From contig NZ_QFRI01000002.1 of assembly GCF_003143755.1 (NCBI RefSeq), positions 357,953 to 421,952 of the forward strand: a stretch of DNA of 64,000 nt. Reading direction: 5' to 3'. The stretch comes from Algibacter marinivivus (GTDB lineage: Bacteria > Bacteroidota > Bacteroidia > Flavobacteriales > Flavobacteriaceae). Below, in pieces: positions 6,782-18,029 of the stretch. The stretch's first letter is position 1, and every line of letters begins with the position of its first letter. Below the pieces are notes generated by a model, which was not told the origin of the DNA, searched no databases, and saw only the letters and a program-made list of their open reading frames with translations. The position numbers were made by a program, and so were the translations under genes.

Positions 6782-7210
6782 ATGAAAATAATAGAATCTG
6801 ATTTTTCTAATCAAATTTTAAAGTTTGTACAAAACCCTTTAGGTAATATTTTTTTCTTCAATCATATAGCAGTTGTAGAACTCAATGAAGGCGTACATTT
6901 TGATACAAATAACGCACCATTAATTATAGATGAATTGGTATCTTATTTTGGAAATACACAACCTTATGGTGTTGTTGCCAACAGAGTTAATTCTTATTCA
7001 GTTAATTTAATAGACACCCAATTATATAAGCAAAAAGCTAAAAACCTATATGCGTATGGTGTAGTTGGTCACGATCTTGCTGGAAAAATGAATGCAGAAA
7101 TGGAAAATGATTTTTGCACATCAGAAAAAGTAGATTATGATAATATCTACGATGCTATAAACAAGGTATACACTAAAGTAAAAAACAGTGGTTTATTTAG
7201 CTTAAACTAA
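6782..7210 (+). CDS. Conserved cytosolic protein of unknown function, 142 residues
   Basis: No signal peptide and no membrane segment. The sequence alternates strands and helices (NIFFFNHIAVVELNEG, APLIIDELVSYFG, PYGVVANRVNSYSVN, NLYAYGVVGHDL), a pattern compatible with a small alpha/beta fold such as STAS-like, but I see no diagnostic motif and do not assign it. It is expressed from a long leader with inverted repeats. Its 3' end overlaps the end of convergent cvfB by 9 bp (7202-7210). The start ATG at 6782 follows an A-rich stretch, as usual in this phylum. Confidence 0.65.
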   Translation: MKIIESDFSNQILKFVQNPLGNIFFFNHIAVVELNEGVHFDTNNAPLIIDELVSYFGNTQPYGVVANRVNSYSVNLIDTQLYKQKAKNLYAYGVVGHDLAGKMNAEMENDFCTSEKVDYDNIYDAINKVYTKVKNSGLFSLN

Positions 7211-8032
7211 ATAAATACCATCAGGTTTTATTTCTATTAAGCGCTTTTTATAAAGTGTACCAACTGCTTTTTTGAAGTTTTTTTTACTCATTTGCAAGTG
7301 CTCTTTAATAGCCTCAGGACTTGATTTATCTGTTAAATTTAGGTACCCACTGTTATCCTGTAATTCTTGCATTATTCGGTCTGCATTAGGCTCAATATTT
7401 CTATAACCTATCTGCCCCAAAGCAATATCAAGTTTATTACCAGGTCGTATTTTTTTAACAATACCTTTCAACTTATCTCCAACACTTAAATCTCTAAAAA
7501 TACTGTCTTTATAAATTAATCCAATATGTTGCTTGTTCACAATAACATTCATCCCAATATCAGATGGATGAGATACAATCAAATCTACCTCATCAAATGC
7601 ATTAACAGTAAGTTCTCTATTGTCTAAAAATCTATTGGTTTTACTAGATGCTACCAATCTATTTGTTTTTTCATCCAAATAGCAATGCACCAAATACCAA
7701 CCTCCAGGTTTCATTTTAAAAGCCTGCTCACTAAACGGGCAAAACAATTCTTTCACCAAACCCCAATCTAAAAAAGCACCATAATCAGTTACTTGATTAC
7801 ATCGTAATAAAGCAAACTCACCACGCTTAATATAAGGCATATCAGTAGTAGCAACTGGACGCTCCTCATTATCTAAATACACAAAAACATCAAGCTTTTC
7901 CCAAATTTTAAAAGACTCAGGAACATATCTATTAGGTAACAAAACTTCATTATCATCAGCATCAATTAAATAAACCCCATGGTCGGTTTCTCTAAGTATT
8001 TCTAGCGTATTTATTTCACCTAATTTTATCAT
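7202..8032 (-). CDS. cvfB: CvfB-like S1 RNA-binding protein
   Basis: The start chosen is the ATG at 8032, giving MIKLGEINTLEIL, which is the family N-terminus. An upstream in-frame start at 8086 would add 18 residues coded inside the end of an intergenic repeat and is unlikely. The protein has three S1-like barrels (for example GVYLIDADDNEVLLPN and DYGAFLDWGLVKELFCPF) and a C-terminal winged helix (SPEAIKEHLQMSKKNFKKAV). The family (CvfB/YitL) binds RNA and in Gram-positive bacteria affects virulence-factor expression. The role in Bacteroidota is not established. The gene is convergent with the unknown gene at 6782 and overlaps it by 9 bp. Confidence 0.85.
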   Translation of the reverse strand: MIKLGEINTLEILRETDHGVYLIDADDNEVLLPNRYVPESFKIWEKLDVFVYLDNEERPVATTDMPYIKRGEFALLRCNQVTDYGAFLDWGLVKELFCPFSEQAFKMKPGGWYLVHCYLDEKTNRLVASSKTNRFLDNRELTVNAFDEVDLIVSHPSDIGMNVIVNKQHIGLIYKDSIFRDLSVGDKLKGIVKKIRPGNKLDIALGQIGYRNIEPNADRIMQELQDNSGYLNLTDKSSPEAIKEHLQMSKKNFKKAVGTLYKKRLIEIKPDGIYLV

Positions 8033-13249: not shown

Positions 13250-15013
13250 TTACTCCACTATACGTTTACCAGTAATCTCACGCCCGCCTTGAAAAAGTGT
13301 TACACTTTCTACAATACCCGCATCATTTTTATTAAACTTTAATTGTGCTTGGACTACTTTTAAATAAAACTCATTGTCATTTTTAGGAAAAATATCAAAT
13401 ACTGGTTGTCCTGTAGCTTGGGTTTTTAATTGGTTTCCTTCTTTTGTAACCGTTAGTACAAACCCTGGCATAAGCTCATATTTTCCAACGTAAGTTTCTA
13501 AAATAGCATCATCTACTTTTACCTCCTTTTCGAAATCACTAACATCATCCCCAAGCTTCTTTAAAAAGTCAATTCCATTTTGATTGTTAGGGTTTAATTC
13601 TACAGATTTTCTATAGTTTTTTATTGCTAAATCTTTTTTACCTAAATTCATTAATGCTTCGCCATAACTATCATAAGCATTTGATGAATTTGGGAAGGCT
13701 TCAATAATCAATTTAAATACTTTGGATGCTTCTTCGACTTTATCAGAACGCATAAGTTTATAGCCCATAGCATTCATATTGCTTTCATTTAAATCATACT
13801 TTTTTAAATCTTTTATTTTATTATAAGATGCTATTCCAGCTTCAATACCTTTTTCTTCTATAACAGAATAAAATTCATCTGCAACAGATTTTTTTGGCAT
13901 GTTATAGTCTTTACCATTTAATATACCATAAATAGCTCTAGTCATTGAATTTAGTGGTGCTCCTCCTGTATTACTAAAAAGTACAACTAACGATTTATTA
14001 GATGGTGCTCTAGAGATATTAGTATTAAATCCATTGATACCACCTCCATGACCAATAGTATAAATACTATCTTTTGACTTTCCTATTTTGTTATAACCAA
14101 CACCCCATCCATAGGCATAATGACTGTTTCCCCAAGCAGAAATATAGGGTTCAAAATACATATCCATATACTTTTGAGATAATAGCTTATTGGTATATAA
14201 AGCTTGATCCCATAAATATAAATCTTCAACTGTTGAATACATAGATCCTGCAGCATAAGGAATTGACATGTCTAAATATCTTGAATTTTCATAACCACTT
14301 CCATTTTTTTCATATCCAGTAGCACGTTTTTTTAAAATCTCACCATGGTGGTCATAACCAGTATTATTCATGCTTAAAGGCTTAAATATATTTTCATGAA
14401 GCATCTCTTCGTAAGTATTACCACTTAATTTTTCAACAAGAACACCTAATAAAAAATATCCAGAATTACTATAGCTAAACTTTTCTCCTGGCTCAAAATC
14501 TAAATCTTTGTCTTGGAATTTTTTAACAAATTCATTTGGTGTATACGGGTTTCGAGTTTCATCTTGCATAAATCTAGGAAATGAGGTGTAATTTGGTATT
14601 CCAGAAGTATGCGTTAGTAAATGATGTGTTGTAATTTTATTTCCTGTTTTTTTAGGATACTCAGTAAGGTATTTTGATATTGGAGCTTGTAAGTCTATCT
14701 TTCCTTCTTCAGCTAATTGTAAAATTAACATCGCCGTGAATTGTTTTGTAATAGATCCTAATCGATGTTTGGTATCAGAAGTATTAGGAATATCCCATTC
14801 CATATTCGCCATACCAAAACCTTTTTTATAAATCACTTTTCCATTATCTGCAACTAATGCAGAACCGTTAAACTTACCATACTCTTGGTATTTACTAATA
14901 AGTTGATCAATTTTTTCTACTTTTGATTGTGAAAAACTAAAGTTGAATACTAATAGCATTGAAAGCATAAAAATGCTTTTTTTAGAACCTAAAAATTTTA
15001 AAATTGTTTTCAT
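13250..15013 (-). CDS. Class C beta-lactamase-like serine hydrolase with TPR segment
   Basis: 587 residues with a signal peptide (cleavage near FSFSQS). The serine hydrolase domain (about 33-370) has SITK at residues 87-90 (SxxK nucleophile), YSN at 181-183 (YxN) and a GHGGG near 325 in place of the KTG box. After it come a TPR-like segment (about 425-490: ASKVFKLIIEAFPNSSNAYDSYGEA and the next helix pair) and a C-terminal beta domain with VGKYELMPGFVLTV. This layout is common in Bacteroidota periplasmic esterases or peptidases of the penicillin-binding clan. True beta-lactamase activity is unlikely. It lies 109 bp downstream of the PAS gene and could be read through from the cobalamin-controlled transcript. 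Confidence 0.85.
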   Translation of the reverse strand: MKTILKFLGSKKSIFMLSMLLVFNFSFSQSKVEKIDQLISKYQEYGKFNGSALVADNGKVIYKKGFGMANMEWDIPNTSDTKHRLGSITKQFTAMLILQLAEEGKIDLQAPISKYLTEYPKKTGNKITTHHLLTHTSGIPNYTSFPRFMQDETRNPYTPNEFVKKFQDKDLDFEPGEKFSYSNSGYFLLGVLVEKLSGNTYEEMLHENIFKPLSMNNTGYDHHGEILKKRATGYEKNGSGYENSRYLDMSIPYAAGSMYSTVEDLYLWDQALYTNKLLSQKYMDMYFEPYISAWGNSHYAYGWGVGYNKIGKSKDSIYTIGHGGGINGFNTNISRAPSNKSLVVLFSNTGGAPLNSMTRAIYGILNGKDYNMPKKSVADEFYSVIEEKGIEAGIASYNKIKDLKKYDLNESNMNAMGYKLMRSDKVEEASKVFKLIIEAFPNSSNAYDSYGEALMNLGKKDLAIKNYRKSVELNPNNQNGIDFLKKLGDDVSDFEKEVKVDDAILETYVGKYELMPGFVLTVTKEGNQLKTQATGQPVFDIFPKNDNEFYLKVVQAQLKFNKNDAGIVESVTLFQGGREITGKRIVE

Positions 15014-15122
15014 AAGATGATTTTTGATTGATTTATATTATTAATGTATGACGTTATATACCGTTTATAAGTTACATAAAAATTAAAAAATCTCAGGTTT
15101 TAATAAATAAAGTTTACTGTGG

Positions 15123-15608
15123 TTAAGTAATTTGTTTTTCTAAAGCTAAAAGATGAGTTGTTTTATTGCTTTCATCTTTTAGCGGGTATATTTTTATTTC
15201 GCATTTATAAGCATCACCATTTTTCTTATAATTGATGATTTCCTCTTTAAAGGGTTTATCTGCTTTTAAACTAACTCTAATAGATTTTACTGCTTCTTCG
15301 GAAGAGTCTTTTCCTTGTAAAAAATTAGGCTTTTTGCCTTTTGCAAAATTTGCTGGATAACCCGTCATTTTAGTAAAACCTTTACTCACCCATTTAATTT
15401 CCTGATTAAAATCTGTAAGAACCAAAGCCTCAAAATCATTTTCAGTTATTAACTTCTCAATATTCAATACCCAACCAAATTTATTCTTATAAGCCTTCAA
15501 AAAGTCAATTTCAATTTGCTTATTAAAATTTATAGATTGTTCTGCTAAATGCATCCCGTAAATATCCCAGCATAGTAAAGGGCCTCGTAATGGTTTTGAT
15601 TTATTCAT
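15123..15608 (-). CDS. Single PAS-domain protein, degenerate LOV-like
   Basis: 161 residues from the ATG at 15608. An upstream in-frame start at 15650 would lie within a hairpin and is less likely. The PAS core covers about 55-160: ALVLTDFNQEIKWVSKGFTKMTGY, then GKKPNFLQGKDSS, then EEIINYKKNGDAYKCEIKIYPL. That middle stretch is the LOV signature (G-x-N-C-R-F-L-Q) with Pro94 where the flavin-adduct cysteine should be, so ordinary LOV photochemistry is excluded. No output domain is attached. The gene is immediately downstream of a full cobalamin riboswitch on the same strand, which predicts expression when B12 is scarce. Its partner is unknown. Confidence 0.8.
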   Translation of the reverse strand: MNKSKPLRGPLLCWDIYGMHLAEQSINFNKQIEIDFLKAYKNKFGWVLNIEKLITENDFEALVLTDFNQEIKWVSKGFTKMTGYPANFAKGKKPNFLQGKDSSEEAVKSIRVSLKADKPFKEEIINYKKNGDAYKCEIKIYPLKDESNKTTHLLALEKQIT

Positions 15609-15649
15609 AGCTTCTTTTTTTATGTGCAGTGAAATAAAGAAGCAAGACA

Positions 15650-15671
15650 TACTATTAAAAAATTAATAGTA
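15650..15671 (-). other. Hairpin between riboswitch and PAS start codon
   Basis: TACTATTAA (15650-15658) and TTAATAGTA (15663-15671) pair perfectly around a 4-nt loop, 42 nt ahead of the PAS start. The minus-strand sequence after it (TGTCTTGCTTC) has no strong U run, so a classical terminator is not obvious. It may belong to the expression platform of the riboswitch. Confidence 0.45.
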
Positions 15672-15689
15672 GTATAAGAATATCTTGAC

Positions 15690-15835
15690 TTGGCTCTAAA
15701 TCGCGAAAGCACTATTTGTCTGAATTATAAAGGAAGTATCTGGCTTGTAATTTACATTACTTACAGTTGCGCGACAGCTTGTGATTTTAACACAATTCCT
15801 TTTTAGTTAGCATGATGCTAAACCTTTATAACTGT
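15690..15835 (-). promoter_or_regulatory. Cobalamin riboswitch
   Basis: Read on the minus strand. P1: TTATAAAGG (15823-15831) pairs with CCTTTATAA (15725-15733). P2: TTAGCA/TGCTAA around TCA. The core follows in the right order: AAGGAA, the GTG...AAAATCAC element, AGCTGTCGCGCAACTGTAAG, a GTAAT/ATTAC stem and AGCCAGATAC. Downstream, hairpin GCTTT/AGAGC (15693-15710) shows loop CGCGA, which is complementary to TCGCG in the L5 region (15770-15774), the expected kissing loop between L5 and L13. All required parts of the RF00174 class are present. The only gene downstream within 120 nt is the PAS protein. No cobalamin transport or B12-independent enzyme gene is adjacent. Confidence 0.93.
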
Positions 15836-15937
15836 TGCAAAGATATTGATTTTAAGTTTACAGGTATTTTAAAATTAATAATACAATTCTATGGTGATAT
15901 TTACTACAAAATAAAACGCAAGTTATTTCTAAAAAAT

Positions 15938-15945
15938 TAACTTTG
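15938..15945 (+). promoter_or_regulatory. Putative -7 box for the DUF3857 gene
   Basis: TAACTTTG fits TAnnTTTG of the Bacteroidota primary sigma factor and lies 24 bp before the ATG at 15969. No clear -33 element is visible. Confidence 0.4.
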
Positions 15946-15968
15946 TATTTTATTTGAAACTCGCCTTT

Positions 15969-18029
15969 ATGAAACAACTATGCATTGCGTTACTATTATT
16001 TATCTTACCTGCATCAACTATTTTTTCACAAGTTTTAAAAGAAAATATACCTAATTGGGTTGATTATATAGAATACGCTGATACTGAAATTAATAAAGAT
16101 GACGTTTCACAAGGTTCTTATATTTTGTTATATGATAGTCAAGTTAACGCTTCAAAAAAAGTGGCTTACACTCGATTAGCTTTAAAGATCACCAATAATA
16201 CAGGTATACAAAATGCATCTACTATTAATGTTTCTTATGACCCTACTTACCAAAATTTAAAATTTCATAGTATTAATATTATTCGTGATGGAAAAGTTAT
16301 AGATAAACTAGATGTCTCCAACTTTCAAGTAATGCGTCGGGAACTCAATGCTGAGATTTATTTATACGATGGTTCATTATCAGCAGTTATGAATATATCA
16401 GATGTAAGAACTGGAGATATTATTGACTATGCATATTCTATTTACGGCTTTAATCCACTTAATAAAAAATTTTCGGGTTCGTTTTATTTAAATGATACGG
16501 ACCCAGTTGGAAAAATAAATGTTTCTGTTTTATCAAAAAACAAATTGCATTATAAACTATTTAATACAAATGATGCACCCCAAATAACAAAAGTTAATAG
16601 CCTTTACAAATACAATTGGAGCGTATCTAATATTAAAAAACTCGATTATGAGCAAAACACACCTTCTTGGAAATTAATTTATAATACAGTTTTTTTAAGC
16701 GAGTATAATTCTTGGGAAGAAGTTGTTGATTGGGGCTTGAATTTATATGATATAAGCACAAAGATTAACACTAAATTACAGACAAAAATTAATGAAATAA
16801 ATAAAACTAACAAGACTCAAGGAGACAAAATAAAAGCTACTCTAGATTTTGTACAAAATGATGTTAGATACTTAGGGCTTGAGTTTGGTATTGGTAGTTA
16901 CAAACCTTTTTCTCCAAACACAGTATTTGAAAGACGTTTTGGAGATTGTAAAGACAAAAGTCTTTTAATGATAAAAATGCTGAATGAAATGAGAATTGAA
17001 GCTTATCCGATGCTCGTAAATACAACTTTAAAGCAAACTATAAAAGAAATTCTCCCTTCTCCAAAATTTTTTGATCATTGTGTAGTAAAAGTTATTGATG
17101 GCAATAACGAATATTATTATGATCCTACAATAACTAACCAAGGTGGTGATTACGATAGCACGCATTTTCCTGACTATAGATTTGGTTTAGTTTTAAAAAA
17201 AGGAAATTCAAACTTTGATGACATTAAACCATATTCAGAAAATAAAGTTGAAACCATTGATGAATATATTATAGATACTATAGGCAAAGGCGCAAAACTT
17301 AAGGTAGTTACAACATACTATGAATCTGAAGCAGATAATATGCGGAATTACTTTAAAAACAACAGCATAAACGCCATTAAAAAAGAATATGAGAATTTCT
17401 ATTCAAACTATTATTTTGATGTAACTTCTTCTAAGCCTCCACGTTTTAAAGATGAAAAATTAAGTAACAAGTTCAAAGTTTTTGAAGAATACCAAATCGA
17501 TAGTATTTGGCAACCTATGATTGAAAAAGAAAACCATATAGCAACCACTTTTACTGCTACAAGTCTTTTAAATTCTCTATATATTCCAACCAAAGAAAAA
17601 AGAAATTCTGAGTTAGCAATTGTATATCCCATAATCAGAGAACATAAAATTAAAATTAATTTACCAACACAATGGGGTATTGAAAATGAAAAAATATTTG
17701 TCAACTCGCCTAGTTTCTATTATGAATGGAACGTGAAGTATGACAGAAAAAAACATATTATCGATTTATACTATTATTTAGAAACTCAAAAAGATCATAT
17801 CAATACAGAAGAATACAAACAATATCTTAAGGATGTAAAAAAAGTAGATCAAACTACTGGATATTACCTTTTTATTCCCAAAAACTACTCTAATTCTAAT
17901 ACATCTACAGTTAACAATAGTGATTTTTTTGAAGGCGTTAAGTCTATTATAAAAGTTCTATTACTATTTGCAGGTATAGTCGTAATAGGGTTATTCGTTT
18001 TTTTATATTTTCAAGGAAAGAAAAGATGA
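15969..18029 (+). CDS. DUF3857 and transglutaminase-core protein, exported, with C-terminal membrane anchor
   Basis: 686 residues from the ATG at 15969, which gives a clean signal peptide (MKQLCIALLLFILPA). A TTG five codons upstream is less likely. Residues about 45-230 are DUF3857, and about 270-390 a transglutaminase-like core with catalytic Cys327 in RRFGDCKDKS, His370 in FDHCVV and Asp385 in YYYDPT. A hydrophobic segment near the end (VLLLFAGIVVIGLFVFLYF) followed by GKKR anchors the protein, leaving the rest in the periplasm. Substrates of this common Bacteroidota family are unknown. The gene is monocistronic and divergent from the PAS gene. Confidence 0.88.
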   Translation: MKQLCIALLLFILPASTIFSQVLKENIPNWVDYIEYADTEINKDDVSQGSYILLYDSQVNASKKVAYTRLALKITNNTGIQNASTINVSYDPTYQNLKFHSINIIRDGKVIDKLDVSNFQVMRRELNAEIYLYDGSLSAVMNISDVRTGDIIDYAYSIYGFNPLNKKFSGSFYLNDTDPVGKINVSVLSKNKLHYKLFNTNDAPQITKVNSLYKYNWSVSNIKKLDYEQNTPSWKLIYNTVFLSEYNSWEEVVDWGLNLYDISTKINTKLQTKINEINKTNKTQGDKIKATLDFVQNDVRYLGLEFGIGSYKPFSPNTVFERRFGDCKDKSLLMIKMLNEMRIEAYPMLVNTTLKQTIKEILPSPKFFDHCVVKVIDGNNEYYYDPTITNQGGDYDSTHFPDYRFGLVLKKGNSNFDDIKPYSENKVETIDEYIIDTIGKGAKLKVVTTYYESEADNMRNYFKNNSINAIKKEYENFYSNYYFDVTSSKPPRFKDEKLSNKFKVFEEYQIDSIWQPMIEKENHIATTFTATSLLNSLYIPTKEKRNSELAIVYPIIREHKIKINLPTQWGIENEKIFVNSPSFYYEWNVKYDRKKHIIDLYYYLETQKDHINTEEYKQYLKDVKKVDQTTGYYLFIPKNYSNSNTSTVNNSDFFEGVKSIIKVLLLFAGIVVIGLFVFLYFQGKKR

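Follow-up and report, generated by a model that had tools for sequence, protein, structure and literature searches.

Known cobalamin riboswitches mostly control genes for B12 uptake, B12 synthesis or B12-independent isoenzymes. Those of class I (RF00174) have a core with a four-way junction, a B12 box and a kissing loop between L5 and L13, together with a P8-P12 arm. Class II riboswitches (IIa of the env8 type, IIb and M. tuberculosis ppe2) have no P8-P12 extension, show GGAA at J3/4 and keep the kissing loop; class IIa is marked by a preference for MeCbl/HOCbl over AdoCbl. Regarding expression platforms, the metE riboswitch of P. megaterium has been dissected by mutagenesis: the 3' strand of P13 competes with a downstream stem, and the switch represses, with a terminator as its output (PMC10653944). 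Here we describe a locus of Algibacter marinivivus in which an aptamer related to these systems precedes a gene for a stand-alone PAS protein. Coordinates refer to the window, which is the whole stretch of 64,000 nucleotides that was analysed. Taken as a whole, the locus is quite probably a compact cobalamin OFF switch acting on the start codon of a stand-alone, LOV-derived PAS protein.

On the minus strand, positions 15843-15714 match the full RF00174 model (1-189) with 57.0 bits (E=1.7e-11), the gathering cut-off being 31.5 bits. The aptamer (15714..15843) is a compact form without the P8-P12 arm, with around 60 model positions of this peripheral region absent in the RF00174 alignment. The 5' strand of P1, AGTTATAAAGG (15823..15833), pairs with 15723-15733 over 11 bp and is followed by the P2 hairpin TTAGC..GCTAA (15807..15821). 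P4, a short P6 and the B12 box AAGCCAGATAC are also present, and then comes the P13 hairpin (15693..15712), with GTGC at its base and the loop CGCGA (L13, 15701-15705). L5, TCGCG (15770..15774), is complementary to L13 at 5/5 positions and invariant in 14 sequences. The sequence-only reading had proposed a riboswitch of this class on this strand; the core strings that it quoted, as well as L5 (15774-15770) and L13 (15705-15701), are present as given, and the covariance score, a check set beforehand, is above threshold.

The pairing of P1 is kept despite sequence change between genera (examples being TATAAAGG/CCTTTATA, TTTAAAGG/CCTTTAAA, AATAAAGG/CCTTTATT, CTATTAA/TTAATAG and CAGGA/TCCTG). On the alignment (A2), 97.0% of the cells of the named structure were paired and 3 pairs showed double changes; its covariation score was 0.100, compared to 0.078 in shuffles (0/500), while slid versions of the structure all scored <=0.057. 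The L5-L13 kissing loop gives no covariation because it is invariant. From genus to genus, core, L5 and L13 hardly change, in contrast to the diverging flanks; judging from these comparisons, the aptamer is under purifying selection.

The window form shares the core, four-way junction, B12 box and kissing loop of class I, but it lacks the P8-P12 arm, has GAUAC for GGAGAC at P6/J6/3 and has a PAS gene as its target. With class II it shares the missing extension, the GGAA at J3/4 and the kissing loop, but unlike standard class IIb it has no UCU in J6/3; M. tuberculosis ppe2, which lacks UCU there too, is a published parallel (PMC11260477). Hence, by the definitions of that study, it is neither class I nor standard class IIb. 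Since GAUAC replaces the GGAGAC of class I in the J6/3 region, ligand affinity or preference may be altered. Among the PAS leaders of relatives, that of genome G251 is a full class I form with its arms, including P8-P12 (99.7 bits, CCAGGAGAC), that of G021 is intermediate (61.8 bits, 176 nt, CCAGGATAC, by eye without a recognisable class I arm), and the riboswitches of the other members of the clade described below span 127-137 nt, nearly all with CCAGATAC. Compared to G251, the window form shows a deletion of one G before J6/3, a changed J6/3 and the loss of the P8-P12 arm. A tree of the riboswitches joins the PAS forms to some of the flavobacterial metE forms (support 0.94) and sets them off from the btuB forms (0.98), so the compact form is likely a reduction from class I in its own right. 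The simplest reading seems to be that it shrank from a class I, metE-type switch within the PAS gene lineage, and the riboswitch tree hints at a possible origin by loss of metE from a riboswitch-metE-PAS arrangement. The series G251, G021 and window would offer a natural case of a class I aptamer losing its peripheral arm.

The first cistron 3' of the riboswitch is a 161-aa ORF (15608-15123, minus strand) that matches PAS_9 (PF13426) with 44.5 bits (cut-off 27). Its ATG lies approximately 114 nt 3' of the end of P1, and the interval contains no other ORF of >=60 aa. An alternative in-frame start at 15650 would give 175 aa, and relatives start at 15608. A hidden B12 gene as the true downstream cistron was rejected, since the gene that follows PAS encodes a beta-lactamase-family/DUF3471 protein. 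The locus thus has the gene order described from the letters alone, a 161-residue PAS gene with no gene intervening, and the view of PAS as a non-classical target of this riboswitch class is supported. On the other side of the riboswitch, a DUF3857 gene on the opposite strand (15954-18029) separates it from the PNPOx gene, here and in L045; in most relatives PNPOx lies directly upstream of the riboswitch, without a DUF3857 gene between them.

A conserved promoter -7 element of the TANNTTTG type, TATCTTTG (15838..15845, minus strand), adjoins P1 on its 5' side. Within a 50-nt segment ending 20 nt upstream of the GGAAT core, we found TANNTTTG in 16 of 18 riboswitch-PAS leaders, compared to 7% of shuffled segments; the motif is known for Flavobacterium (PMC6847099). 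Given the position of this element just before P1, transcription most likely begins at P1, with the PAS gene served by a promoter of its own. Between P13 and the start codon, the RNA of the window can adopt two mutually exclusive folds, in which the switch strand GCTTCTTT (15636..15643) pairs either with the 3' strand of P13, as an anti-sequestor, or with 15610-15617, as a start-codon hairpin. In the minimum-energy fold, the GUGC of the P13 base pairs with GCAC (15624..15627), a pairing kept as ATGC/GCAT in L020 (by eye), the P13 3' strand pairs with the GCUUC segment, and the region 5' of the AUG is single-stranded. P13 formation releases the GCUUCUUU strand for pairing around the start codon, its simplest partner being the sequestering strand AAAGAAGC (15610..15617) directly before the AUG. 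The P13-constrained minimum-energy fold of the window uses the same strands with a slightly different pairing, and the simple GCUUCUUU/AAAGAAGC-type hairpin appears in the constrained folds of L003, L004, L005 and L008.

We then compared the accessibility of the start region with P13 forced and in the unconstrained ensemble, using 40 sets of shuffled leaders as a control. Forcing P13 lowered the unpaired fraction by 0.197 on average in 15 leaders, versus 0.002 in the shuffles (0/40 sets). Individually, eight of the 15 leaders, including that of the window, were beyond all 40 shuffles and seven were within the shuffle range; in the G212 leader the computation gave no P13-dependent closing. The energy gap that the ligand and the kissing loop would have to pay in the window is 3.8 kcal/mol. 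No intrinsic terminator that could serve as expression platform was found in 14950-16000, and there may be read-through into the 13250-15013 gene. In PMC6847099, Bacteroidetes are described as lacking Shine-Dalgarno sequences, with initiation depending on mRNA structure. Since translation in flavobacteria does not depend on Shine-Dalgarno pairing, concealing the start region would suffice, and it is a plausible switch output. The computed direction is that cobalamin turns the gene OFF, so the modelling supports the earlier expectation that PAS expression rises without B12.

We propose that a dedicated promoter yields an mRNA that would start at the compact cobalamin riboswitch and carry one conserved cistron, the LOV-derived PAS gene. 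When cobalamin is scarce, both P13 strands would pair with the downstream GCUUC...GCAC segment, leaving the pre-AUG region open, and PAS would be made. When cobalamin is bound, L5 would kiss L13 and P13 would form; the released GCUUCUUU strand would then close a hairpin with AAAGAAGC immediately 5' of the AUG, and translation would stop. Because translation would be open under scarcity and closed upon binding, PAS would be a member of the B12-shortage regulon with BtuB, MetE and class I RNR. Most likely it works as a sensor or adaptor that stands alone, its LOV pocket being repurposed and non-photocycling. As in P. megaterium metE, the P13 3' strand competes with a downstream stem and a formed P13 means OFF; in contrast to it, the proposed output is a start-codon hairpin instead of a terminator, and both P13 strands are involved. 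As a start-codon switch, this platform lends itself to tests in a phylum that initiates translation without Shine-Dalgarno sequences.

The pair is kept across genera. We found the riboswitch just 5' of the PAS gene in L003-L007, L012, L014, L017-L021, L008/L015 and L013, and also in genomes G393, G266, G261 and G251. No riboswitch above the cut-off was detected upstream of PAS relatives L009, L010, L016, L022 and L023, or within 1.5 kb of the more distant L024-L040. Using genome-wide coordinates in a family sample of 399 genomes, around 90 carry a stand-alone PAS protein, 15 of them with a riboswitch directly upstream; as most family homologues do without it, B12 control is not essential to the role of the protein. 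A tree built from 49 PAS proteins contains a clade (support 96/94) in which 17 of 20 members bear the riboswitch, and two of the three riboswitch-free ones are identical. Most clade members share the neighbourhood DnaK-RlmI-nitronate monooxygenase-PNPOx-riboswitch-PAS-...-MenF-MenD (names partly from ORF reading), while in G021 and G251 the pair is found elsewhere, followed by a YciA-like hotdog thioesterase. Besides, G212, from another PAS clade, has a full-size, class-I-like RF00174 match of 88.4 bits directly upstream of PAS; none lies directly upstream in its closer orthologues, and its genus is represented by one genome. The riboswitch-PAS pair is thus a conserved regulatory link in a clade, broader than the single-locus claim made before, and we hold with good confidence that the association is real, conserved and regulatory. 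Within the open-access literature searched, we found no earlier link of a PAS gene to a cobalamin riboswitch, and this target is an unexpected addition to the genes that bacteria control with B12.

Other arrangements of riboswitch and PAS gene were examined and set aside. In G214 (riboswitch-btuB-PAS, 92 nt gap) a hairpin followed by a T run lies between the genes, and in G144 (riboswitch-metE-PAS, 42 nt gap) there is a hairpin between them (both by eye), so these terminator-like hairpins separate PAS from btuB or metE and the cases were considered adjacency only. In G145, G258 and G330, PAS lies about 7 kb upstream of a metE riboswitch and was judged unrelated.

In LOV domains, two Asn and one Gln have flavin-contact roles. 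AlphaFold predicts the 161-aa protein (15123..15608, minus strand) with confidence (mean pLDDT 91.2) as a PAS fold whose N-terminal helix is long. LOV domains are its best matches in the PDB, both by sequence profile (YtvA LOV, E 5.9e-23) and by fold (DsLOV and others). With the short LOV proteins B. subtilis YtvA LOV and DsLOV it has in common the fold and the FLQG motif, the LOV sequence GRNC(R)FLQG corresponding to GKKP(N)FLQG, but it differs from them by a 34-residue N-terminal helix and by its pocket. The alignment confirmed the earlier statement that the adduct-forming cysteine is replaced by Pro94 in a non-canonical pocket: almost every listed member has Pro here, L032 has Ala, and Cys was seen in none. 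Aligned to YtvA, only one of the three flavin-contact residues is kept, the first Asn (N126). The other two are replaced by invariant residues, the FWN Asn by Cys136 and the final Gln by Glu157. From its sequence, the protein is not an ordinary blue-light receptor; a residue set that is different and yet strictly kept suggests a LOV-derived pocket with a new use. By analogy, it may still hold a flavin, since LOV proteins without the cysteine, which can signal by photoreduction (PMC4682037), and without the glutamine (PMC9098866) have been reported to signal.

A cobalamin- or corrinoid-related function of the PAS protein, which the sequence-only reading had also considered, found no support: a domain search gave no match to a B12-binding domain, and the pocket is LOV-derived. 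A CarH/light regulon was likewise set aside, as the only three B12-binding frames found in the A. marinivivus genome have 718-1148 residues and none is of CarH size. Many riboswitch-free homologues (L022-L038) have an extra N-terminal segment, M..LDIYLS, resembling the conserved PLLSWDIY as if duplicated.

The only other RF00174 site of the A. marinivivus genome, 208 nt long and scoring 107.9 bits, precedes the gene for a 623-aa TonB receptor. Among NCBIfam models this receptor matches TonB-B12/BtuB best, with a score under the curated cut-off. After scanning the family with a covariance model (R1) of the compact form, we observed that the riboswitches read in detail mostly precede metE, nrdB/nrdA (class I RNR) and BtuB-like receptors. 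In G127 (L144:1241-3583) a compact B12 riboswitch is followed by an NAD-dependent-epimerase-like gene and a MetE-C-terminal-like methionine synthase, and in G135 (L134, G135:C5:519552-519757) one lies 5' of an uncharacterised lipoprotein-like protein of at least 440 residues. Riboswitch targets in the family are thus largely the expected B12-shortage set, with PAS as the odd member.

One could argue that the switch is activating, with PAS made when cobalamin is plentiful, for instance as the partner of a B12-dependent process, since activating corrinoid riboswitches exist (PMC10653944). We regard this as quite unlikely: P13 formation closes the start region in the window and seven other leaders, and the other targets in the family are genes expected to be needed without B12. 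The lost arm, the deleted G and the changed J6/3 could also mark a relic that no longer binds cobalamin and is merely a conserved leader. Against this very improbable reading stand a core, L5 and L13 that barely vary while the flanks diverge, the P1 pairing maintained through sequence change, and the fact that other natural switches without P8-P12 bind B12 (PMC11260477). That the pairing arose by chance in one local rearrangement and was inherited without functional meaning would fit the concentration of cases in one PAS clade and the synteny common to many of them, but it is improbable given the different locus in G021 and G251, the separate case of G212 and the purifying selection on the aptamer. 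Assuming round numbers (around 1.4 riboswitches per genome, 3300 genes and 90 PAS lineages), roughly 0.04 first-gene pairings are expected by chance, so two independent lineages have p ~7e-4 and G212 alone ~0.04.

A further alternative concerns the protein and is compatible with the proposed OFF switch: PAS could be a flavin photoreceptor or redox sensor that works without the cysteine and responds to light or redox state independently of B12. The closeness to LOV folds, the retained FLQG and Asn126 and the signalling of LOV proteins lacking Cys or Gln speak for it. The changes of the GRNC Asn to Lys, of the FWN Asn to Cys136 and of the last-strand Gln to Glu157, together with the genome having no CarH-sized B12-binding frame, make it rather doubtful, though the least improbable of these alternatives.

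Returning to the compact OFF switch, a wider reading can be put forward tentatively. The Flavobacteriaceae PAS family might be an output of B12 shortage, a signalling protein whose new pocket chemistry (Pro94, Cys136 and Glu157) would relay the shortage to other proteins, under a natural minimal riboswitch that derived from class I in the gene lineage and hides a Shine-Dalgarno-free start codon. If such a conserved, sensor-type target is true, flavobacteria would signal B12 shortage to other proteins, beyond replacing enzymes.

Regarding the neighbours of these riboswitches, several Flavobacteriaceae have B12-riboswitch operons in which a YciA-like hotdog thioesterase is placed between nrdB and nrdA (L150:3725-4111, minus strand; L152:2726-3118, plus strand; L153 and L157, reverse strand), and in other genera a homologue of this thioesterase adjoins the PAS gene at its 3' end or overlaps it there. 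These thioesterases might be a lead to acyl-CoA handling when methylmalonyl-CoA mutase is without B12. Finally, two tandem cobalamin riboswitches were observed 5' of metE in L092 (around 6996-7358; G021:C1:1441014-1441364).
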